IMG/VR virus record: IMGVR_UViG_3300045747_000289
Location: 1 to 23,887 of that record
Direction: 5' to 3' (one strand)
DNA from: a virus
DNA length: 23,887 bases
The translations under genes and the position numbers were made by a program. Of this stretch, positions 3,366 to 22,223 are shown in pieces. The first letter of the stretch is position 1. Every line of letters begins with the position of its first letter. The notes beneath the pieces were generated by a model that was not told where the DNA came from, searched no databases, and saw only the letters and a list, made by a program, of their open reading frames with translations.

Positions 3366-3874
3366 ACAATCTCAGTATAACTGTTCAAAAAGATCTTCTT
3401 ATCAACAATCCAAGTGTCGCTGTGGTCTTCGCGATTGCGTACCACAAAGTCGCCGGGTTTAAATCGTTGTAGATTACAACCGAACCCTACTACCGTTTCA
3501 CCCCAATTGCCTTGAATGTATCCGCTATTAGTCTCACCTGTCCAATTTATTTGATCAAGTGCATCAGTTGTAATTTGCGAAAACTCAACGCTACTTTCTT
3601 GCTTGGGATTACACACCATCCAACCATCCGGATCAATTGCATCCACTGTATATTTGGCAAGCAACTTCTTTGCTGATTGCTGCCAGGCATCATTGCTTTC
3701 ACCGATACAAAACATTGCATCTGCATGTACTGGCTCTTTAGCCTCAAGTGTATCCACAAGGAACTTTGCCATTACAGTGCGATCGACCAACAGGGTTACC
3801 ATCGGTTTTGCCCGTAGGCCTTTTGTTTTACGACCTACTTTGTAGGTCAATTTGGTTGTGTTGAGTAATTCCAT
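3362..3874 (-). CDS. Hypothetical protein downstream of the NadR-like gene
   Basis: 170 residues, no family recognised with confidence. The C-terminal third (GYIQGNWGETVVGFGCN, then FKPGDFVVRNREDHSDTW) looks like a small beta-barrel with a PGDFVV turn. The N-terminal half has a helical, Lys-rich region. Its ATG overlaps the NadR stop (TAATG), so it is translated together with that enzyme and may have a related role (inference from context only). Confidence 0.65.
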   Translation of the reverse strand: MELLNTTKLTYKVGRKTKGLRAKPMVTLLVDRTVMAKFLVDTLEAKEPVHADAMFCIGESNDAWQQSAKKLLAKYTVDAIDPDGWMVCNPKQESSVEFSQITTDALDQINWTGETNSGYIQGNWGETVVGFGCNLQRFKPGDFVVRNREDHSDTWIVDKKIFLNSYTEIV

Positions 3875-4863
3875 TATAGTCCTAAATCCTTCATCACGAA
3901 GTTTATACGTTCATCGAGAGTCCCTGATACAATTTTATAAGGAATATTATCAGTTGTCAATCGATTAACATACCAATTGTGTCCTATCATTCTAAATGTA
4001 GAATCTTTGCGTGTACCATCTTGCTCAAAATCAATATTTGGATCACACAGATAAATCTTGTGATATTCGCGATCCGCCATCCGATGTAGTGCAGCTGATG
4101 CTCGTCCAAACAGTTGTTCACTGTAGAATAGAGTAGTAAGTGGAGTTGTGTCGCAAATTAGATATTTGCCAATGCTGTGCTTACGCTCGTCGTCGATTTG
4201 TGTTCTCGCGATCAGTTCCATATCTTCGTAATTCAACTTGCCTTTACGTTCGTCGTACAGTTGACGTCCATATTCGGGTACCCAATTCATTCCGGTAAAC
4301 AGTGCCAGTTCTCTAGCTAGAGTAGTCTTGCCACTTGATTCACCACCAAGGAACGCAATGCGCGGAATGAAGTCTCGTGCTACATAGTGATTCAACCATT
4401 TGGGATCTATCTTGTTTCGTAATACAGTGCCAGAGATCGGAAACTGTGCTCTTTCCTTATCTACAAGAATGTGATCTACTTTAATATCAGTTCTCAACTC
4501 TAAGCTGAAAAATTTCGAAAGATATGCTGCAAATCCATCGCCGTAATCTTCGCTTGTAAACACTGCTTGAACAGTGGTGTTCATCTTGTTTAGCAAGTAG
4601 TTTGCACAGAATAAGCGATGCATATCATCGGGCATATCATCATCCGGTACTTCGCGTGGATTTAGCACAACAACCGTTGCAGTTGGGAATGTCTTTGTCA
4701 ACCACTCCTTGCGCCTTTCAGGTTCGCAACCGGTGAAGTTTTTAGAAGTGTAGGAAAGGATGATAACTTTTTCGCAATTGGACAGTGCGGTACGAATTAC
4801 CTTTTCGTGTCCGAGGTGTAGTGGACAGAACTTACCTACTACTAATCCAGTTGCGTATCTCAT
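3874..4863 (-). CDS. nadR: NadR-like bifunctional NMN adenylyltransferase / ribosylnicotinamide kinase
   Basis: 329 residues with two domains. The N-terminal NMNAT domain has GKFCPLHLGH (10-19, the HxGH nucleotidyltransferase motif) and PISGT (142-146). The C-terminal riboside kinase domain has the P-loop GGESSGKTT (173-181), DTTPLTT (238-244) and CDPNIDFEQDGTR (273-285), typical of the NadR kinase. Together they convert nicotinamide riboside to NMN and then NAD. The DNA-binding domain of enterobacterial NadR is missing, so no repressor role is expected. The transporter PnuC, which supplies the riboside, is encoded at 5655-6272. Phage NAD synthesis can support replication and can offset NAD-depleting defences. 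Confidence 0.93.
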   Translation of the reverse strand: MRYATGLVVGKFCPLHLGHEKVIRTALSNCEKVIILSYTSKNFTGCEPERRKEWLTKTFPTATVVVLNPREVPDDDMPDDMHRLFCANYLLNKMNTTVQAVFTSEDYGDGFAAYLSKFFSLELRTDIKVDHILVDKERAQFPISGTVLRNKIDPKWLNHYVARDFIPRIAFLGGESSGKTTLARELALFTGMNWVPEYGRQLYDERKGKLNYEDMELIARTQIDDERKHSIGKYLICDTTPLTTLFYSEQLFGRASAALHRMADREYHKIYLCDPNIDFEQDGTRKDSTFRMIGHNWYVNRLTTDNIPYKIVSGTLDERINFVMKDLGL

Positions 4864-5654: not shown

Positions 5655-6272
5655 TTACTTCTTTGCCAAATTAACCCAAGTCTTCCACGACCACAATGCG
5701 TTTACCCAAAACACTGCGTACAGTGCAGATGTCATATACAGTCCTCGGCTCCAGTACAGCGGTACACTTAATGTGTTCACTAGCACCCACAGTGGCCAAT
5801 TTTCTACATTACGACGCATTAGCAACAGTTGAGCAATAACACTGAATGTGAGTACAGTTGAGTCAATCCACGGCGCATACGCATTAGTGTATTTGTGTAG
5901 CATCCAGCCGTATCCAGCAGCAACTACAATAGCAATTCCTGCCATAGTAACTACGGTAGACCATCCGGCATATGCTACCTTCATTGATTCTATTTTATCC
6001 TGTAGTTCCGAACCATCGCCGGCTGTGGACACATCCATTGGGATATTTTTGTTCGCCCAATTCCACCATCCAATGAAACTAGTAGCAATGAAGAACACTT
6101 GCAGCGTTACATCAGCATACAGTTGTGATGTATAGAACAACCAGCCAAACAATCCACATGCAACAATACCCGTCCACCAAGTATGTACGTTATTGCGCCC
6201 TGCCAGAAAAATACAAACTGCGGTCATTACGTTTGCCGCAAGTTCTAAAGGTGTCCATGTAAACCATTCCAT
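5655..6272 (-). CDS. pnuC: Nicotinamide riboside transporter PnuC
   Basis: 205 residues, highly hydrophobic with about seven membrane segments and many Trp residues. The PnuC signatures are visible: FFIATSFIGWWNWANK near 80-95 and NVENWPLWVLVNTLSVPLYW near 155-175. PnuC carries nicotinamide riboside across the inner membrane by facilitated diffusion, with trapping by phosphorylation; the NadR-like kinase encoded next door would do the trapping. It lies downstream of the NMNAT-Nudix gene in the transcript from the promoter at 7764-7792, so transport and synthesis are split between two neighbouring operons. Confidence 0.93.
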   Translation of the reverse strand: MEWFTWTPLELAANVMTAVCIFLAGRNNVHTWWTGIVACGLFGWLFYTSQLYADVTLQVFFIATSFIGWWNWANKNIPMDVSTAGDGSELQDKIESMKVAYAGWSTVVTMAGIAIVVAAGYGWMLHKYTNAYAPWIDSTVLTFSVIAQLLLMRRNVENWPLWVLVNTLSVPLYWSRGLYMTSALYAVFWVNALWSWKTWVNLAKK

Positions 6273-6681: not shown

Positions 6682-7707
6682 TTACGCTCCTAAAAAGTGT
6701 TGTAGAATTTCGTAGTGGTCTTCGAAGCATTCTTCGCTCTTTACACTTGCAATAGGAACCCACTTTGCCTTTTCAGCATCATCGGCACCTTTAACCTTTG
6801 GCAGTTCACCGTCGGACAATTTGATAAAGAATGCATGTGTAATGATCCGTCCTCGTGGGCTACGGTCAATTGCATCAAAAACCTTACTTCGTACAATGCT
6901 GCCACGGAGGACCGGAGCAGGAACCTTAATCATCGTTTCTTCACGCAGCTCACGCAGCATAGCATCTTCAACAGTGCGGTCAGTATTTGCATTCACATAG
7001 CCCCCGGGCAATGCCCATAGTCCTTTACCGGGTTCTGCACGACGCTTCACCATCAGTACGTGACCGCTTTGGATAACCACAGCATCGGCAGTGCTAAAGA
7101 TTGGCGGGTAGGGCAGCGACTCGTATTGCTTTTTGTAATGTGCAATAAATGCACGTTCCTTGATGATCTGCTCGTAGTCCTTTGTGTCCTTAAAGTAATT
7201 CAGTATATCGAATGTGGACGGTGGAACAACATTCTTAATGAAGTTCATATTCACATCACACCTGAAATACAAGTCTCGAATGTCAGTTGCATCGAGCGGT
7301 TCTAATAGTTCTACTGATTCAAATTCCCATTGCGGAAACATATCTAAGTAGAAACTTGAAGGGTCTTTCTTGTGTCCGATAATGCCAATCTTGTCGCCAG
7401 GCTTAGTATGCTTTGCGACTGCTGCTTGAACACGAACGGCCCATGCTTGATCGTTATACAGACTATCAGGGTTTGGCTCGGTGTGAAACGAAAGTGTTCC
7501 TGCCATTCCGCGGGTTGCTTCGTAGATCATAACCTTTCGCTCTGCGAAAGAAAATGGATTCTTATAAGTACGCGGTTGATTTGCTGAGCCCACAATAAAC
7601 ACAACATTTTTGGCAAGTGCAGTAGCACGTTGAACCAGCAGTAAGTGTGCCGAGTGGAATGGTTGAAAGCGTCCGATTAGGACGAGGGTATCATATTTCT
7701 TAGTCAT
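6682..7707 (-). CDS. Bifunctional NMN adenylyltransferase / Nudix ADP-ribose pyrophosphatase
   Basis: 341 residues. Residues 1-185 are an NMNAT domain with GRFQPFHSAH (12-21) and ATDIR (140-144). Residues 200-341 are a Nudix hydrolase with LPGGYVNANTDRTVEDAML followed by RELREET (to 259), the Nudix box with the small insertion typical of this family. The architecture matches the NMNAT-Nudix enzyme of Synechocystis and of vibriophage KVP40: NMN plus ATP gives NAD, and ADP-ribose is hydrolysed. It is the first gene after the promoter at 7764-7792, in an operon with pnuC. The NMNAT activity duplicates that of the NadR-like protein; the Nudix half adds ADP-ribose removal. Confidence 0.93.
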   Translation of the reverse strand: MTKKYDTLVLIGRFQPFHSAHLLLVQRATALAKNVVFIVGSANQPRTYKNPFSFAERKVMIYEATRGMAGTLSFHTEPNPDSLYNDQAWAVRVQAAVAKHTKPGDKIGIIGHKKDPSSFYLDMFPQWEFESVELLEPLDATDIRDLYFRCDVNMNFIKNVVPPSTFDILNYFKDTKDYEQIIKERAFIAHYKKQYESLPYPPIFSTADAVVIQSGHVLMVKRRAEPGKGLWALPGGYVNANTDRTVEDAMLRELREETMIKVPAPVLRGSIVRSKVFDAIDRSPRGRIITHAFFIKLSDGELPKVKGADDAEKAKWVPIASVKSEECFEDHYEILQHFLGA

Positions 7708-9120: not shown

Positions 9121-10105
9121 TCAGATTATCGCGGAATATTTTCCAAGCATTTTCCCAACTCCAACGCATACTACCGTTTAACACAGTTTGTCTATCTAAC
9201 TGTATGGCGCTTTTAACTGCCGATGTTAAGTCTTCGTCCATACATCCGGTGACACCTTCATCAATAACATCTTCAGGACCTTGACACGGATAAGCGGCAA
9301 CTGGCGTGCCGCACGCCATTGCTTCAATCATTACAATGCCAAATGTTTCCCAACGTGATGGGAATACAAACACATCTGCCAATCTGTAATATTCTGCTAA
9401 ATCTGCACCAATTTTAAAACCTACGAATTCCACATCCGGATATTTCTTTTCGTATGCTGCTCGCATTGGTCCGTCACCGACCATAATCTTACGTGCGCCC
9501 GGATAGTCCAACTCAAAGAAATCTTCTAAATTCTTTTCTTTGCTTACGCGGCTAACACATACTAATGTTACCTGCTTGTTAAGAGCATGGTCGGGATAAA
9601 ATATGCTTCTATCGACTCCGCGTGTCCAAGGAATAATATCCCCATCAAACCCGTGGGCTTGCAATTCTTTAACCATTGAGTCTGTAGTAGTAAGTACCTT
9701 GCCGCTATGCTTGTGGAACCAACGAACAAACTTCCAAGTAATAGATTCCGGTATTCCGAATAGTGCTTTTAGCCCTTCAGGGAATTTAGTATGATAAGCG
9801 GTATTGTGCCTAATATTATATAGTGAAAGATACTTTCTAGCCCACATACCAAGAGGACCTTCTGTGGCGATATGGATATAATCCGGATCGATCTCCGCAA
9901 TCTTCTTGCCCATCTGCCGCGGATAGGTAATCTTGACTTCGTTGTAGCGAGGGCAATCAACATAGCTGAACCACCCGGGATGAAGCACCACAACGTTATA
10001 ATTATCACGAGTCGCGCAAATCTCAATGTTTTTGTAAGTCGTGACAACGCCATTTATTTGGTCCGGTAAATTATCTGTTATTATCAGTATCGTCTTTTGT
10101 TTCAT
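9101..10105 (-). CDS. GT4-family glycosyltransferase, Agt-like
   Basis: 334 residues, GT-B fold, CAZy GT4 type. INGVVTTY (18-24) is the N-terminal Gly loop; HIATEGPLGMWARKYL (78-93) is typical of the lipid and mannosyl GT4 branch; VSRVSKEKNLE (184-194), VGDGP (209-213) and FPSRWETFGIVMIEAMACGTPVA (248-270, with EX7E at Glu253 and Glu261) form the nucleotide-sugar site. It starts 35 nt inside the end of the upstream metallophosphoesterase gene. That pair and order match the PlcP-Agt operon, in which Agt glycosylates diacylglycerol to make glycolipids during phosphate starvation. Modification of host surface sugars is the alternative. It ends with TAG, one of few in the window. Confidence 0.85.
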   Translation of the reverse strand: MKQKTILIITDNLPDQINGVVTTYKNIEICATRDNYNVVVLHPGWFSYVDCPRYNEVKITYPRQMGKKIAEIDPDYIHIATEGPLGMWARKYLSLYNIRHNTAYHTKFPEGLKALFGIPESITWKFVRWFHKHSGKVLTTTDSMVKELQAHGFDGDIIPWTRGVDRSIFYPDHALNKQVTLVCVSRVSKEKNLEDFFELDYPGARKIMVGDGPMRAAYEKKYPDVEFVGFKIGADLAEYYRLADVFVFPSRWETFGIVMIEAMACGTPVAAYPCQGPEDVIDEGVTGCMDEDLTSAVKSAIQLDRQTVLNGSMRWSWENAWKIFRDNLIDCRSR

Positions 10106-12515: not shown

Positions 12516-12591
12516 TGGTGCGATATGAGAGAATCGAACTCTCGACCCGGGAGTTTAGAAGTCCACGCTCTAACCACTGAGCTAATACCGC
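12516..12591 (-). tRNA. tRNA, anticodon counts as CTA (or Arg-TCT if shifted)
   Basis: A 76-nt cloverleaf with encoded CCA. Acceptor GCGGTAT/ATATCGC (7 bp, one G-U), D arm GCTC-AGTGGTTA-GAGC, T arm GAGAG-TTCGATT-CTCTC, 5-nt variable loop, A73. By standard numbering the anticodon arm is TGGAC-TTCTAAA-CTCCC, which puts U33 before C34 U35 A36, i.e. an amber (UAG) decoder, with A36 A37 A38. The anticodon stem pairs only in its three central positions; positions 27-43 and 31-39 mismatch. A one-base shift gives TCT (Arg) but pairs worse. Either it is an unusual suppressor-type tRNA or a decayed tRNA-Arg. It has its own promoter at 12600-12627. Confidence 0.8.
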
Positions 12592-12627: not shown

Positions 12628-12866
12628 TATAGCTTTGGAGGTAATTGTTGATCGCGTAGTTGTTTTTTTAGACGGGCTTTTGCAGCACCTTTTTTACGCT
12701 TACGTTCTGTTGTGGGCTTTTCGTAAAATTCATGTTTCTGAACATCCAACAGGAGACCAGCATCTTCTACTTTTTGTTTTAGCTTACGCAGGGCAACGCT
12801 AATATTAGCGTCGCCTACTTCTACTTTAAGTCCAGTAAGCTTAGGACTGTTCGGATTTTTTGCCAT
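12624..12866 (-). CDS. rpsU: Ribosomal protein bS21
   Basis: 80 residues with the bS21 pattern: a short N-terminal strand (LKVEVGDANISVALRKLKQKV), the conserved two-helix body with KHEFYEKPTTERKRKKGAAKARLKK, and a basic C-terminus. bS21 is a small-subunit protein near the 3' end of 16S rRNA that helps initiation. Phage copies may replace the host protein and favour phage mRNAs (inference from the family). The N-terminal 12 residues (NPNSPKLTG) are an extension. It starts 26 nt inside the end of clpX, so the two are co-translated. Confidence 0.9.
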   Translation of the reverse strand: MAKNPNSPKLTGLKVEVGDANISVALRKLKQKVEDAGLLLDVQKHEFYEKPTTERKRKKGAAKARLKKQLRDQQLPPKLY

Positions 12867-14091
12867 GCTCTTTATTAAAAATTAAAACAGCTTTGCCTCC
12901 TTGGGCTGTATCCTTGGTTATCACAATTCGCTCTAACCCGCGCTCTGCAAGGTCCATCGCTTCAAATTGATAATTTAACAACATCTTTTCGATGATTTGT
13001 TTTAGGCCACGTGCGTTAGTTTTAAGTTCTTTTGCTTTTTCTGCAATAACACGAAGTGCTTCATCTTCAAACTTCAATTCAACACCGTCTAACTTAAAAA
13101 TATACTGGTACTGCTGGATAATGCTATTCTTAGGTTCTTTAAGAATCTGCATTAAATCTTCGACGCTTAGTTCGTTAACGTTTACTGTAAGTCCAAAGCG
13201 CCCCACAAACTCGGGAATAAGTCCAAAGCTAATAAGATCCTTTGTAGTAAAGTCGTCTAGATAGCTGCTCTCTGATTTGTCTTTCTTCTTTGCAGGAGTA
13301 TGGAAGCCGATACTGTTTGCATCCTTGCGATTTGCAATTTGCTTATCTAAGCCCACAAATGCGCCGCCACAAATGAACAAAATGTTTGAAGTGTCAATTT
13401 CAATCATATCGCCCTTAGGATGCTTACGCTTATCGCCTGCAGGTACCCGGGCAATTGTGCCTTCGATAATTTTCAACAATGCTTGTTGTACACCTTCACC
13501 GCTCACATCACGGGTGATACTCATATTTTCGCCCTTACGAGCAATCTTATCAATTTCATCGACGTAAACAATACCGTGTTCTGCACGTTCTACATCGCCG
13601 TCAGCTACTGCTAACAATCGAATAAGAATACTTTCTACATCGTCGCCGACATATCCTGCTTCAGTTAGCCCTGTTGCATCGCAAACTGCAAACGGCAGAT
13701 CGAGAAATTCTGCAACCTTCTTTGCCATCATTGTCTTGCCGCATCCTGTAGGGCCGAGCATAAGCACATTTGTCTTTTCAAGTTTAATATCCTTGGATGG
13801 ACTAAACACACGCTTAAAGTGTTGAGCAACTCCCACACTTAACGCAATCTTTGCTCGCTCTTGTCCGATAACATATTCGTCAAGGAAGTCTTTAATTTTT
13901 GTGGGATTAAATTGCTTTTTATCACCCTTAGACGGAAAGTCTTTTACCTTTTTATCGTCTAATATATTAGTACATAGATCTACACAATCATTGCAGATTG
14001 CAGCGCCGTCTCCAACAATCATTTTTTCAACGTCTTCCTTGTGTTTTCCACAAAAACTACATTGGTGATCGTCGTTCTTATTCTTTTCCAT
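12841..14091 (-). CDS. clpX: ATP-dependent protease ATPase subunit ClpX
   Basis: 416 residues, the length of bacterial ClpX. The N-terminal zinc-binding domain has Cys 11, 14, 33 and 36. AAA+ motifs: Walker A GPTGCGKT (113-120), pore-1 loop GYVG (146-149), Walker B IVYVDEID (174-181), RKH loop (222-224), IGF ClpP-docking loop (261-263), arginine finger in PEFVGRFG (293-300) and sensor 2 NARGL (359-363). ClpX unfolds tagged proteins, notably ssrA-tagged ones ending in LAA, and feeds them to ClpP. All elements for tag recognition and ClpP docking are kept, so an active enzyme working with host ClpP is likely. No ClpP is encoded in this window. It overlaps bS21 downstream and the gene upstream by 14 nt. 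Confidence 0.96.
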
Positions 14092-19372: not shown

Positions 19373-20734
19373 TCAAATAAACGGGTCAGTTATTACAATT
19401 GTGCCGTTATTTCGTTCCATTACATTGTCAGTATGCATATCCCATTCTACGCCTGCTTTCTTACCTGCTGCGTATAAGCCTTGCATTGTTGCAAATAGTC
19501 CGCTCCATTGTTTTGTAAATGCAGGATCATTATCTATTTCATATTTAATATGACCTGGCATTTCTTTTGTTGCTTGCATACCTAATGCATTCCACGACGC
19601 TGGATTTAGTAACTGTTTAACTACATCTTTCCATTTAATAAAAGCGACTTTTGTTAGTTCTCCCAATTGCCAAACCATGTGTTCGGCAAACCCAGAACTA
19701 ATTGGGTGCAATCGTTCCATTGCAATTTGTCTATACGGCGACCCATTTATTTCAAATGTTGAATGTCCGGCCCCATTAATTTCCGTGAATATGGGAAGAT
19801 TTGGATTGCCTTTGTTCTGTTGACAAAAATTATAGAAAGTTAGAAAGTTTAGATCTGCACGGTCTCGACCGCCTTGATTAGGTGCTGTCGGCATTAAAAT
19901 TTTAATAACGTGCCCTTCTTCTTTAGTCCATACCGTTGCATCAACTCCACTACCTAACATAGTGTAGCCCATTGCTTTTAATTTTTGTAATATTTGTTTA
20001 CTATTATCTGTACCGTTCTCAAACTCATTAATTGTAGTTTCTTTTAACGATGCAGTTAGATGCGGGTTGCCAAATACAGTTTCGGTAATTTGTCCAGATC
20101 CGATTGTTCGAGTATATGTGTCGGCATCTACCATTTCTAAATTTGGATCGTTAAACAACGAACGCAATAACTCAACATCAGTTACTGCTTGCACATTGTA
20201 CTTTTTTAGGATCGAGCGCATTGCATCGCTACTTTCAATCCATACTCCGGGCTTGCTTAACAAAGCTTGTACCTTGCCGATTGCTTTGTCTTTACTCGTG
20301 CGTGTACCATCGTGCCCTAATCCTTGGATTTTATGTCCACTCCAACTTTCGCCTGCTCTGTTTTTGCGATAGAAAACGGCTGCGTCTACATCCGGATCGT
20401 GATCCCAATCAATTACATTCCAGTCTGACGGAATAACATCTTTCATGCTATTCACAAAGCTACCTTGTGATGTGCCGCCGTATGCATTTTGCACCAACCC
20501 GATTAAGTCAGAACCTGCTTCTTCCTTGTCTGCATTTGATATAAACAGTTCCCACTGATTTTTCGTAAGTTGGAATTCTGTTAAAGAACCGCCACCTTCC
20601 ATTATTGCAATTTCGAGCGGAGTAAATTTTGTGGATGGGAAATTGTCTAAACACTTGTTGAGCTTGCGCTGTAAACTTTCTGTGTAAGACAGTTTTACAG
20701 GTGCTTTTGATTTAGTAAGGTCGTTGAATCTCAT
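19373..20734 (-). CDS. Fusion of a GNAT-like domain and a protein-kinase-like domain
   Basis: 453 residues. Residues about 55-225 look like an acetyltransferase-type fold (DVDAAVFYRKNRAGESW, then IQGLGHDGTRTSKDKAIGKV at 136-155, WIESSDAM, FNDPNLEMVDADTY). Residues about 245-453 are kinase-like: Gly-rich loop MLGSGVDATVW (259-269), VIKI with Lys278, catalytic-loop-like DMHTDNVM (432-439) and ITDPF (448-452) in place of DFG. The protein ends one residue after DPF, so there is no activation segment or distal C-lobe, as in small aminoglycoside-phosphotransferase-like kinases. Substrate unknown. Last gene before the terminator; coupled to the two genes upstream. GNAT assignment is less sure than the kinase one. 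Confidence 0.75.
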   Translation of the reverse strand: MRFNDLTKSKAPVKLSYTESLQRKLNKCLDNFPSTKFTPLEIAIMEGGGSLTEFQLTKNQWELFISNADKEEAGSDLIGLVQNAYGGTSQGSFVNSMKDVIPSDWNVIDWDHDPDVDAAVFYRKNRAGESWSGHKIQGLGHDGTRTSKDKAIGKVQALLSKPGVWIESSDAMRSILKKYNVQAVTDVELLRSLFNDPNLEMVDADTYTRTIGSGQITETVFGNPHLTASLKETTINEFENGTDNSKQILQKLKAMGYTMLGSGVDATVWTKEEGHVIKILMPTAPNQGGRDRADLNFLTFYNFCQQNKGNPNLPIFTEINGAGHSTFEINGSPYRQIAMERLHPISSGFAEHMVWQLGELTKVAFIKWKDVVKQLLNPASWNALGMQATKEMPGHIKYEIDNDPAFTKQWSGLFATMQGLYAAGKKAGVEWDMHTDNVMERNNGTIVITDPFI

Positions 20735-21108
20735 TTTACTACATACGCCGGGTCAGGACTTGTAAAGTTACGTTTACGCATAACTGTTTTACCTACTAAC
20801 TGTTTCTGGCCACCGGTGTTCTTTAACACAAACGGGATATTGATGCTAGACAATAAATCTTTTAATACTGCTTCCGGGCGACGCATATTAGAAATCTGAA
20901 TACCGTTTGTTCGAAACTCTTTCTGAAACATTGCTACTAGCTCATCTGCTGTAATAGGTTTTCCGTTTCTTTCGTCATTTACACGATCAAAAAAATGTCT
21001 AGTAAACTCAACATCAATTCCCAACTTTGCCCACAAAGCATCGGCAACTTGTTCAACATGATCTAATTCAGGTTGAGTTATATCTTCAAATAGCTCGTAT
21101 ATTTTCAT
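20731..21108 (-). CDS. Conserved phage protein with prohead-protease-like N-terminus
   Basis: 125 residues. MKIYELFED opens the protein and contains LFE before Asp, compatible with the T4 prohead protease rule L/I-x-E. Then FTRHFFDRVNDERNGKPITADEL (about 35-57) and, at the end, GKTVMRKRNFTSPDPAYVV, patterns that recur in T4-like phages. The body could adopt a small toxin-like alpha/beta fold, but I cannot assign it. Possibly an internal head protein. Confidence 0.65.
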   Translation of the reverse strand: MKIYELFEDITQPELDHVEQVADALWAKLGIDVEFTRHFFDRVNDERNGKPITADELVAMFQKEFRTNGIQISNMRRPEAVLKDLLSSINIPFVLKNTGGQKQLVGKTVMRKRNFTSPDPAYVVK

Positions 21109-21109
21109 C

Positions 21110-21412
21110 TTATTGATCAGTGTTATTTGTTTGCTTTGTAACTATATCTGAAATATGTCGTTTAACAATCTCACCTGCCTGCTTTACTTTTTGATCCCAG
21201 TTATCTGTATTGAGTTGATCTTGTAAAAACTTGTATCCGGCTTCTGCGGCATCTTGTAATTGCTCGTATGTAGGTTTAGGGCCTTTTACAACTTGATTTA
21301 ACATGTTAAACACATTAGGGATAGTCTTCTTTACGTTCGCATAATACTCGTCCGCCTTTATTTGTACCCCGGCGTTAACTATGTTTTCAATTAATAGATC
21401 TTTTATTCGCAT
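21110..21412 (-). CDS. Small helical protein with prohead-protease-like N-terminus
   Basis: 100 residues. MRIKDLLIEN starts the protein, again fitting the L-x-E site after a short basic amphipathic leader, much like the next gene. The rest is helical and Lys-rich (KKTIPNVFNMLNQVVKGPK; KVKQAGEIVKRHI). There is no Shine-Dalgarno sequence; GATAAATA lies 4 nt before the ATG. Possibly a packaged internal protein (inference). Confidence 0.65.
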   Translation of the reverse strand: MRIKDLLIENIVNAGVQIKADEYYANVKKTIPNVFNMLNQVVKGPKPTYEQLQDAAEAGYKFLQDQLNTDNWDQKVKQAGEIVKRHISDIVTKQTNNTDQ

Positions 21413-21571: not shown

Positions 21572-21604
21572 ATAATCTCCTTATATAGTAGTTATACATT
21601 CCAC

Positions 21605-21627
21605 ATAAGAAACCCGCCGAAGCGGGT
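21605..21627 (-). terminator. Intrinsic terminator after the tmRNA
   Basis: ACCCGC-TTCG-GCGGGT, a 6-bp GC stem with a UUCG tetraloop, followed by TTTCTT on the minus strand. It ends the csp-tmRNA transcript. Confidence 0.85.
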
Positions 21628-21960
21628 CCTTGTTAGTTTCTGTTACGAGGTATAACTACCCTAAGCGGCTGTTAAGCTGCTAATGCGTAAACTGAATCGT
21701 TTGCGGTTGTTTTTGTTTTACTTTTTACGACTATCTGTGTCGTGCTGTCTGCTTATGTACTCTTTGCGAAGTCGATCCTGTGTCATCCCCATCATAAAGA
21801 AACTATGTAATACACACCAATAAAAATAGTTTATCGGAACTGCAAGACACAGCAATATCTGATACCATTCTAAATGTTTCATAACTTCCCTTATGGTGGA
21901 GATGCCGGGCACTGCCCCCGGGTGTTCCACTTATTTCTATTTGCTTCGTACAGCAATAAC
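21628..21960 (-). ncRNA. ssrA: tmRNA, circularly permuted (two-piece) gene
   Basis: Order on the minus strand: acceptor piece, spacer, coding piece. The acceptor piece ends with a T-arm-like CCGGG-GGCAGTG-CCCGG (21921-21905), then CATCTCC-A-CCA (21904-21894). The coding piece starts GGGGATG (21790-21784). These strands form a perfect 7-bp acceptor stem with the G3-U70 alanine identity pair. GGATCGAC follows as in the tmRNA D-arm region. A hairpin ACGAC/GTCGT (21743-21727) and GTCGTAAAAAG match pseudoknot 1. The resume codon GCA at 21704 opens the tag ANDSVYALAA and TAA (21672). GGTA-GTTA-TACC with a later TAAC can form a small pseudoknot. ACAGCA in the coding piece can pair with TGCTGT (about 21955-21950) in the acceptor piece. 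Piece ends are approximate. The T-loop lacks the usual TTCRA. Confidence 0.88.
21718..21882 (-). CDS. Possible membrane microprotein inside the tmRNA gene
   Basis: An ATG at 21880-21882 with AAGGGAAG just upstream opens a 54-codon frame through the tmRNA spacer and into the coding piece, ending before the tag. The product MKHLEWYQILLCLAVPINYF continues hydrophobic to about residue 33 (WCVLHSFFMMGM) and ends basic (TQDRLRKEYISRQ, DSRKK). The downstream part overlaps RNA sequence conserved for tmRNA function, so the frame may be fortuitous. Low confidence, but the Shine-Dalgarno sequence and membrane profile are suggestive. Confidence 0.3.
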   Translation of the reverse strand: MKHLEWYQILLCLAVPINYFYWCVLHSFFMMGMTQDRLRKEYISRQHDTDSRKK

Positions 21961-21963
21961 CTT

Positions 21964-22167
21964 TTAGACTAACTGAATATTGCTAGCCTGAGGACCCTTT
22001 TGGCCTTGCGTAACTTCAAAAGTTACTGCTTGACCTTCGTCTAGGCTCTTATATCCTTGCGAGTTAATTTGACTGAAGTGTGCAAACAAGTCTGCTCCAC
22101 CGTTATCAGGGGTAATGAACCCGAAACCCTTAGGGGCGCTAAACCATTTTACTTTACCTGTTGCCAT
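21964..22167 (-). CDS. csp: Cold-shock domain protein
   Basis: 67 residues, the usual size of CspA-type proteins. [20 protein letters not shown] holds RNP1 (KGFGFI), and DLFAHFSQI corresponds to RNP2. The end [22 protein letters not shown] is standard. It binds single-stranded RNA/DNA and melts RNA structure, and could aid phage translation or antitermination. It has its own promoter (22195-22223), and the tmRNA follows within a few nt of the stop, apparently on the same transcript. Confidence 0.95.
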
Positions 22168-22194: not shown

Positions 22195-22223
22195 ATTTTA
22201 CAACAATCTAGGAATGTTGTCAA
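22195..22223 (-). promoter_or_regulatory. Sigma70-type promoter of csp and tmRNA
   Basis: TTGACA (22223-22218), 17-nt spacer, TAAAAT (22200-22195), about 28 nt before the csp ATG. A small dyad CAACA/TGTTG (22201-22219) lies in the spacer. Confidence 0.8.

Follow-up and report, generated by a model that had tools for sequence, protein, structure and literature searches.

The minus strand of the viral DNA analysed here (one stretch of 23,887 nucleotides, referred to below as the window) carries at 21629-22008 a circularly permuted two-piece tmRNA gene, recognised by cmscan and from the sequence, and the question that this locus raises is what lies in the intervening sequence (IVS) between the two pieces. 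A sequence-only reading of the window had put forward such a gene as unusual for a phage, and this, its main claim to novelty, fails, since two-piece phage tmRNAs have already been published: the accessible part of PMC9004378 has 53 of them among 133 unique phage tmRNA structures, and that of PMC11915505 lists 79 phage tmRNA sequences and describes the Rfam model RF04321. The accessible part of PMC11915505 also has tRNA processing enzymes cleaving two-piece tmRNA, says of the IVS only that it is 'absent in mature tmRNA', and mentions one IVS with a tRNA-Ala and another with a repeat. No report of a protein gene in the IVS of a two-piece tmRNA was found in the accessible parts of the literature searched, the founding papers aside.

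The two-piece tmRNA gene of the window

The model of permuted tmRNA (RF04321, tmRNA_permuted) matches 21955-21672 in cmscan with 96 bits against a cut-off of 47 (E 8.7e-18), and RF01849 (alpha_tmRNA) matches the same strand with 70.5 bits against a cut-off of 50 (E 1.2e-17), which bears out the permuted order of the pieces that had been read from the letters. RF01850 (beta_tmRNA) reaches 62.7 bits, under its own cut-off of 84, and the gene thus does not qualify as beta-type. At the gathering threshold, tmRNA models are the only matches in 21600-22010, with neither an intron nor an endonuclease among them. ARAGORN, proposed beforehand as a further check, did not detect the permuted gene and reported only a tRNA elsewhere in the window. 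The acceptor stem, which joins the acceptor piece to the downstream coding piece, is indeed paired at seven of seven positions with G3-U70; in 34 distinct relatives all of its pairs form (100%), three of the seven having varied on both strands, and the G-U pair is the same in all 34, so that the covariation by which the earlier reading could be checked is present. The tag frame likewise holds up in the sequence and the model alignment, ending in a hydrophobic degron, ANDSVYALAA, directly before TAA. The gene is probably a working one.

Two supposed oddities are not odd: the T-loop GGCAGTG is typically alphaproteobacterial, since the Rfam alpha consensus at the same place is GGCgGUA, and the ALAA ending of the tag, which had been called gamma-like, is shared by the tags of two Alphaproteobacteria (ANDNVAPVALAA and ANDNRTQVALAA). 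From the description of the gene as a hybrid, the parts that leaned on an unusual phage copy and a gamma-like tag therefore fall away, whereas the mixed character persists in the scores, at 70.5 bits for alpha and 62.7 for beta. Furthermore, in three relatives whose T-loop is of alpha type the beta score, though under its cut-off in each, exceeds the alpha score (80.8 versus 71.8 bits in L125, 73.3 versus 58.8 in L124 and 81.8 versus 78.0 in L180). The tmRNAs of the window's phage relatives thus lie between the alpha and beta bacterial types, and in this intermediate position they differ from the two-piece tmRNA of Alphaproteobacteria (RF01849/RF04321), with which the window shares piece order, acceptor stem, G3-U70, T-loop class and tag frame. 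Taken as a whole, the earlier interpretation is partly supported. No SmpB, and thus no self-contained trans-translation, was found in six phage records, which include the 157,925-base contig holding the window's ORF and may be fragments.

Table 1. Positions in the window of the tmRNA gene, its IVS and the neighbouring elements
Feature	Position	Strand	Basis and remarks
Acceptor piece	21894..21955, 5' end approximate	-	Ends CCACCA (TCCACCA at 21900-21894); first part of the RF04321 match
T-arm CCGGG-GGCAGTG-CCCGG	within acceptor piece	-	Sequence
IVS, 103 nt	21791..21893	-	Between CCA and GGGGATG
Coding piece, 5' end GGGGATG at 21790	21629..21790, 3' end approximate	-	RF04321 and RF01849 alignments
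Putative RNase P site	between 21791 and 21790	-	5' end of coding piece
Tag ANDSVYALAA (21704-21675) and TAA (21674-21672)	21672..21704	-	Sequence and model alignment
Terminator-like hairpin ACCCGCTTCGGCGGGT, then TTCTT	21612..21627	-	Palindromic stem listed on the plus strand only; minus-strand reading from the sequence
Cold-shock protein gene (cspA-like), directly upstream	21964..22167	-	PF00313, E 4.3e-30
Sigma-70-like promoter TTGACA-17-TAAAAT, upstream of cspA and tmRNA	22195..22223	-	11/12 consensus; not evidence of function
Shine-Dalgarno AAGGG, beginning two bases past CCA	21888..21892	-	Sequence
IVS ORF (family A), 54 aa, MKHLEWYQILLCLAVPINYFYWCVLHSFFMMGMTQDRLRKEYISRQHDTDSRKK; ATG at 21882, stop TAA 21720-21718	21718..21882	-	Comparison of six tmRNA genes
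IVS-end helix, 5' strand AAGGGAAGT, contains the Shine-Dalgarno	21884..21892	-	8/9 pairs in window; covariation; predicted fold
IVS-end helix, 3' strand AGTTTCTTT, just before ATGAT and coding piece	21796..21804	-	Covariation; predicted fold

The reading frame in the intervening sequence

The spacer had been put at about 103 nt and listed among the oddities; it measures exactly 103 nt and was rightly flagged, although its gene content had not been read. An ATG five bases after the AAGGG opens a frame of 54 codons (family A) that runs through the whole spacer into the 5' acceptor strand of the coding piece, where its C-terminus is encoded. A protein scan of viral contigs with this sequence gave eight loci, seven of which, representing four distinct sequences, are permuted tmRNA genes that carry the ORF at the corresponding position. 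The set compared comprises six distinct tmRNA genes (L122, L123, L125, L128, L180 and L213), all of which pass RF04321; the ORF of L122 is identical to that of the window and thus not independent of it, L180 was found by the TAAGG pattern scan described below and L213 was added by a further search. Over 28 codons in the six genes the differences number 68, 29 and 115 at codon positions 1, 2 and 3, a pattern of selection at the protein level. In-frame pN/pS is 0.10-0.63 and lies below 1 in 15 of 15 pairs; in the +2 frame it exceeds 1 in all 14 pairs giving a value, and in the +1 frame it is also low in many pairs and falls below that of the true frame in 3 of 15, so that it is the codon positions that carry the coding argument. 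In none of the six genes does the IVS contain an in-frame stop, and their frames, of 33 to 54 codons in total, end at differing places in the coding piece, which itself supplies a TAG in this frame in L123, L128 and L213. On this comparison, the spacer of the window is a small protein gene conserved in related viral tmRNAs.

Residues 1-37 of the family A protein are predicted to form a single helix (2-36; mean pLDDT 84.6) and its best hydropathy window begins at residue 9; according to these predictions it is a one-helix membrane protein. Searches of Pfam and PHROG returned no match at E 0.1, and neither 50,697 phage records (best E 8) nor genome_contigs held a meaningful one. Matches in 18 Xanthomonas plasmid records have E 2 or worse, those listed lie inside trbL, and they are regarded as chance, as is a Gordonia phage match at E 8. 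Two viral loci were rejected as members, namely L129, a beta-type gene at 132 bits that matches in the coding-piece part only, and L228, with a short unrelated match; another eight local alignments of family A with other loci (E 3e-6 to 4e-4) were taken as shared tmRNA coding sequence. A free-standing ORF with the motif LAVPINYxYW, found in L214-L227 among candidates pre-chosen by pattern, matches family A over about 20 residues, and from this resemblance homology is likely but not certain. As for L213 (3998-4219), the T-loop region of this family A tmRNA is different (TGCGAAT); the contig stops soon after the expected tag start, the model match reaching position 185 of 213 and no further.

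Cargo in the IVS and its distribution

A pattern combining an alpha-type T-arm, CCACCA and TAAGG detected 82 stretches in viral contigs, in 74 of which both pieces were paired, yielding 54 distinct IVS of 65-382 nt. Three of the eight dropped stretches lie at a contig end; the other five (L042, L147, L171, L176 and L182), which have TTGA or TAGA and not TCGA, were left out of the count and all show an ORF of 30-32 aa. Two of 36 sequence strings, being incomplete, were also left out. RF04321 scores above its cut-off in all 15 further cargo-carrying loci submitted (66.6-122.6 bits). In 52 of the 54 cases at least 80% of the IVS is taken up by an ORF whose start lies within the first 31 nt, as against about 2.3 in total (0.54+0.74+1.02) expected when the interior is shuffled and the ends are kept. 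The IVS ORFs form 24 groups at blastp E 1e-3, of which two (L155 and L148) are without a filling ORF, leaving 22 dissimilar groups; the largest has 16 members (MEIIWHILLTVC...), that of the window five and the others one to three. This cargo is varied, some of it with and some without hydrophobic stretches: 1) that of L137 is DUF2061 (E 3.5e-20); 2) that of L140 is DUF2061 by similarity; 3) that of L151 resembles, by eye, an acetyltransferase and that of L138 an ADP-ribosyltransferase-like protein, both below the Pfam cut-off. A tblastn search with the 41-aa cargo found nothing in the phage records. Nine of the ten other groups with equal-length pairs have a mean pN/pS of 0.10-0.34, one of these values resting on two differences, and the tenth (group 8; one pair, seven differences) has 1.39. 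The stop codon lies within the IVS in 46 of the 54 cargo ORFs, in 35 exactly 1 nt before the coding piece, where it is mostly the TGA of a common leader TTTATGAT, and in 11 at 12-14 nt before it; in family A and L169 the ORF is in the third frame and continues into the coding piece.

Dissimilar cargo sits on closely similar backbones. Between L137 and L133 the acceptor pieces (60 nt) do not differ and the coding pieces (190 nt) are 98% identical, yet the former carries DUF2061, the latter a dissimilar ORF of 72 aa; among 291 pairs with acceptor identity of at least 80%, which share members and are not independent, 227 differ in cargo group. Moreover, among the loci compared, six cargo families have homologues outside any tmRNA (judged by the absence of TCCACC from the 45 nt that precede the start): the 62-aa family in L020 and in Methylophilales phage Melnitz; the L191 cargo in L181; DUF2061 in L194 and L016; the L133 cargo in L223 and L217; the L151 cargo in L010 (57% over 109 aa, E 1.8e-40); and the L031 cargo in L120, L030, L033 and L061. 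As part of the explanation favoured below, and with the same good likelihood, we take the IVS of these viruses to be an exchangeable slot for small protein genes.

Filled IVS are a minority in a viral-contig sample drawn with the T-arm only, which has at least 120 matches. Both pieces were found in 110 of these, 51 with an IVS under 60 nt, and 10 matches in which no coding piece was found were left out. By a strict test the filled distinct IVS number 0 of 24 at 60-89 nt, 3 of 19 at 90-139 nt, which equals the shuffled maximum, and 6 of 13 at 140 nt and above. Two further pattern scans gave no stretch and one, L296, which has another IVS ORF. In bacteria, the TAAGG pattern found 28 stretches in genome_contigs, mostly of Sphingomonas and Robiginitomaculum, 27 of them with an IVS of 28-48 nt and the last, cut by a contig end, with the same short sequence; read by eye, none of the 28 holds a comparable ORF. 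RF04321 scores above its cut-off in 174 of 190 genomes from the class of a Sphingomonas. The best 30 of these 174 Alphaproteobacteria loci gave 28 parsed IVS (L277 and L286 being left out) of 5-48 nt, none filled, and their median of 30 nt contrasts with the 103 nt and the protein gene of the window. Among the matches listed, four Alphaproteobacteria loci exceed 280 nt, and neither these nor two more are filled (0/6), with an IVS of 165 nt in L288, 232 nt in L289 and 44 nt in L290.

Phage isolates give a similar picture, 12 of 24 phage records having been examined, Melnitz among them. Seven have an IVS of 88-109 nt (Rhodobacter phages L297 and L302, Mesorhizobium phage L299, DSS3_MAL1 L300, Phaeobacter phage L301, Erythrobacter phage L303 and Ruegeria phage L307), and five of the seven are without an ORF covering 75% of it; the frames of L303 and L307 cover 95% and 87%, respectively, with no visible ribosome-binding site before the longest start. 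The IVS of L306, a faecal phage contig, measures 14 nt, and the regular expression gave no two-piece structure in two Caulobacter phages (L304 and L305) and a Rhodobacter phage (L298). With the bacterial and most of these isolate IVS unfilled and filled ones a minority among viral contigs, the filled slot belongs to some phages and not to permuted tmRNA as such. Two annotations beside these genes may be mentioned: in L303 (vB_EliS-L02) a proteasome subunit alpha/beta is annotated at 1615, about 0.8 kb past the end of the acceptor piece, and in L297 (RcRudolph) an annotated hypothetical protein of 111 aa (725-1060), probably a misannotation, spans the unannotated tmRNA and ends in the tag ANDNVRMDAQALAA.

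A close published counterpart is the ssrA of Melnitz (MZ577097, L293; accessible part of PMC9004378), like that of the window a phage-borne alpha-type two-piece tmRNA. Its IVS of 142 nt contains TTGGAG, an ATG and a putative ORF (MFKWLSKTRLVVITRDYFRERNRKADAKIPKYLSGTRS...) that, as in the window, reads into the coding piece; the cargo differs from that of the window and has no homologue among the loci compared, and the record annotates only tmRNA there. Melnitz further differs in carrying its homologue of the 62-aa cargo family outside the IVS, as gene 85 directly upstream of the tmRNA, and in having a glutamine riboswitch downstream of it.

These data bear on the possibility that the window has an ordinary phage two-piece tmRNA in which the ORF is a chance frame, conserved through the structure of the precursor RNA. 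Such a view could draw on the RNA constraint on the IVS ends described below, on the folding of the window stretch, which is better than that of shuffles (z -2.5), and on a leader like TTTATGAT that also precedes the coding piece of bacterial L232, whose IVS has no ORF. It is nevertheless very improbable in the face of the codon pattern in family A and in nine of the ten other comparable groups, the filling of 52 of 54 IVS where about two are expected, the DUF2061 of L137 and, by similarity, of L140, and the cargo homologues that exist as free-standing genes; on the codon pattern, the filling and these homologues we reject a chance frame for the window.

The end helix and the two proposed outputs

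The two ends of the IVS, its first ten bases and its last fourteen, pair with each other (AAGGACACT with AGTGTCTTT, and variants), forming a helix that extends the acceptor stem and adjoins it in the minimum-energy fold of the window. In 30 distinct end pairs a mean of 8.57 of 9 pairs form, against 7.65 when the ends are re-partnered (0/5000 as high), and in 34 sequences the helix is 95.8% paired, with both-side changes at three of nine pairs. Counting the acceptor stem and the IVS helix together, 58 cells have both-side changes, as against 14.8 in shuffles (0/500), although the number of pairs with such changes, 6, is not above shuffles (138/500 reach 6); sliding the partner by one column lowers pairing from 97.6% to about 62%. 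By eye, the IVS ends of bacterial L232 pair as well; since such bacterial IVS do so, the helix probably predates the cargo. Comparison thus suggests that the phage IVS probably fitted a ribosome-binding site into a pre-existing helix. The presence of that site in the helix is partly selected, as the 54 IVS were chosen for TAAGG, and the AAGG common to these loci is part of the pattern that found them; by our reading the likely site of Melnitz (TTGGAG) lies mostly behind the helix strand. The site in the helix could also simply be poor for translation.

Sequence comparison establishes the tmRNA itself, the coding nature of family A, the end-to-end filling with dissimilar cargo and the covarying end helix. 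The explanation that best joins them, and which we consider likely, is that of a two-piece phage tmRNA whose IVS is an exchangeable slot for small protein genes and whose cargo and tmRNA outputs compete. In this scheme a single transcript, probably of cspA and tmRNA, would be cut by host RNase P where the coding piece begins and processed 3' after CCA, and the resulting two tmRNA pieces would work with host SmpB; the cargo would be translated from the uncut precursor or from the excised IVS. The paired IVS ends would favour cutting and hide the ribosome-binding site, and an initiating ribosome would open the helix. Since the helix would both draw the cut sites together and hide this site, cargo translation and tmRNA maturation are expected to compete. 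As the family A stop codon lies beyond the cut, a complete family A protein could come from the uncut precursor only.

A simpler account would have the IVS as a safe harbour, in which little apart from the ends would matter for the tmRNA, into which cargo recombines and from which it is expressed like any gene of an operon, with no coupling to the tmRNA. This account has somewhat less than an even chance of being right: the cargo is of great variety and is exchanged on near-identical backbones, the same families are found elsewhere, and the 62-aa family of Melnitz sits just upstream of the tmRNA instead. What speaks for coupling is the ribosome-binding site inside the end helix, though it was part of the search pattern, and the distance of the stops from the cut, which in 46 of 54 IVS is 1 nt or 12-14 nt and may in turn follow from a full slot.

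A different kind of coupling is conceivable for family A, whose IVS might be a built-in non-stop message: RNase P would remove the stop, the tmRNA of the same precursor would rescue ribosomes that stall on the cut IVS and the tagged cargo would be destroyed, so that the cargo level would report on tmRNA activity. The lack of an in-frame stop inside the IVS in six of six family A genes fits this proposal, as do a ClpX homologue in the window (12841-14091, minus strand; zinc finger E 8.1e-15, AAA_2 E 3.8e-30), whose phage also specifies a ClpXP-type degradation tag, and the pair of ClpP genes present in both G004 and G005, the other four records searched having none; with these, tagged proteins could be degraded by partly phage-made machinery. 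Read-through may, however, be simply what the frame gives, the coding piece itself supplying the TAG in three of the genes, and 46 of the 54 cargo ORFs have their stop in the IVS, so that we regard the proposal as unlikely, at perhaps one chance in a few. Slightly less probable still is a self-sensing switch, in which the RNase P cut would make both the tmRNA and a non-stop cargo mRNA and the tmRNA would destroy its own cargo, complete cargo accumulating only when maturation or rescue is saturated, for example late in infection. Under such a switch a small membrane cargo might act in lysis timing; in L222, weakly similar ORFs lie beside ORFs that look holin- and endolysin-like.

If the favoured explanation, an exchangeable slot with competing outputs, is true, a class of small phage genes can be missed in annotation when their region passes for tmRNA, the Melnitz record being an example. 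It would also provide a simple system where a single RNA serves either as a message or in ribosome rescue, make testable what phages gain from carrying tmRNA, and offer a naturally occurring site for insertions that is flanked by tRNA-type cuts and has already diversified. Two arrangements in the accessible part of PMC11915505 invite comparison. Group I introns with homing endonuclease genes in tmRNA also nest a protein gene that is removed on maturation, but they are self-splicing and lie in the T-loop, whereas here the natural IVS of the permuted gene is presumably cut by tRNA enzymes and its cargo in the window matched no endonuclease family. The IVS with a tRNA-Ala likewise carries another gene; it is, in that part of the source, a single case and an RNA gene, in contrast to the many protein genes with shared fitting rules seen here.

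Several minor observations concern other genes of these phages. N-termini such as MRIKDL, MKIYEL, MRIKEL, MKISEL and MRINEI are shared by window genes at 20731-21412 (minus strand) and the cargo of L132, L138, L144 and L151, perhaps as a common signal. The L170 locus belongs to a phage record of 300 kb in which a cargo-carrying tmRNA is found too; it includes 36 tRNA genes (ARAGORN) and at 9451-9914 a GOLLD RNA (192.6 bits) with a tRNA-Asn inside. In the window, a tRNA at 12516-12591 (minus strand; Rfam 58.3 bits) is called tRNA-Pyl with anticodon CTA by ARAGORN; its anticodon stem pairs poorly, and an amber suppressor and a miscalled tRNA-Arg(TCT) are both conceivable. The window further encodes, on the minus strand, a protein with the C-terminal domain of ribosomal protein L7/L12 (1546-1953; PF00542, E 1.1e-6) and a set of NAD salvage genes (3874-4863, 5655-6272 and 6682-7707) comprising an NMN adenylyltransferase-like protein, a PnuC-type transporter (PF04973, E 1.2e-45) and a nucleotidyltransferase-NUDIX fusion.
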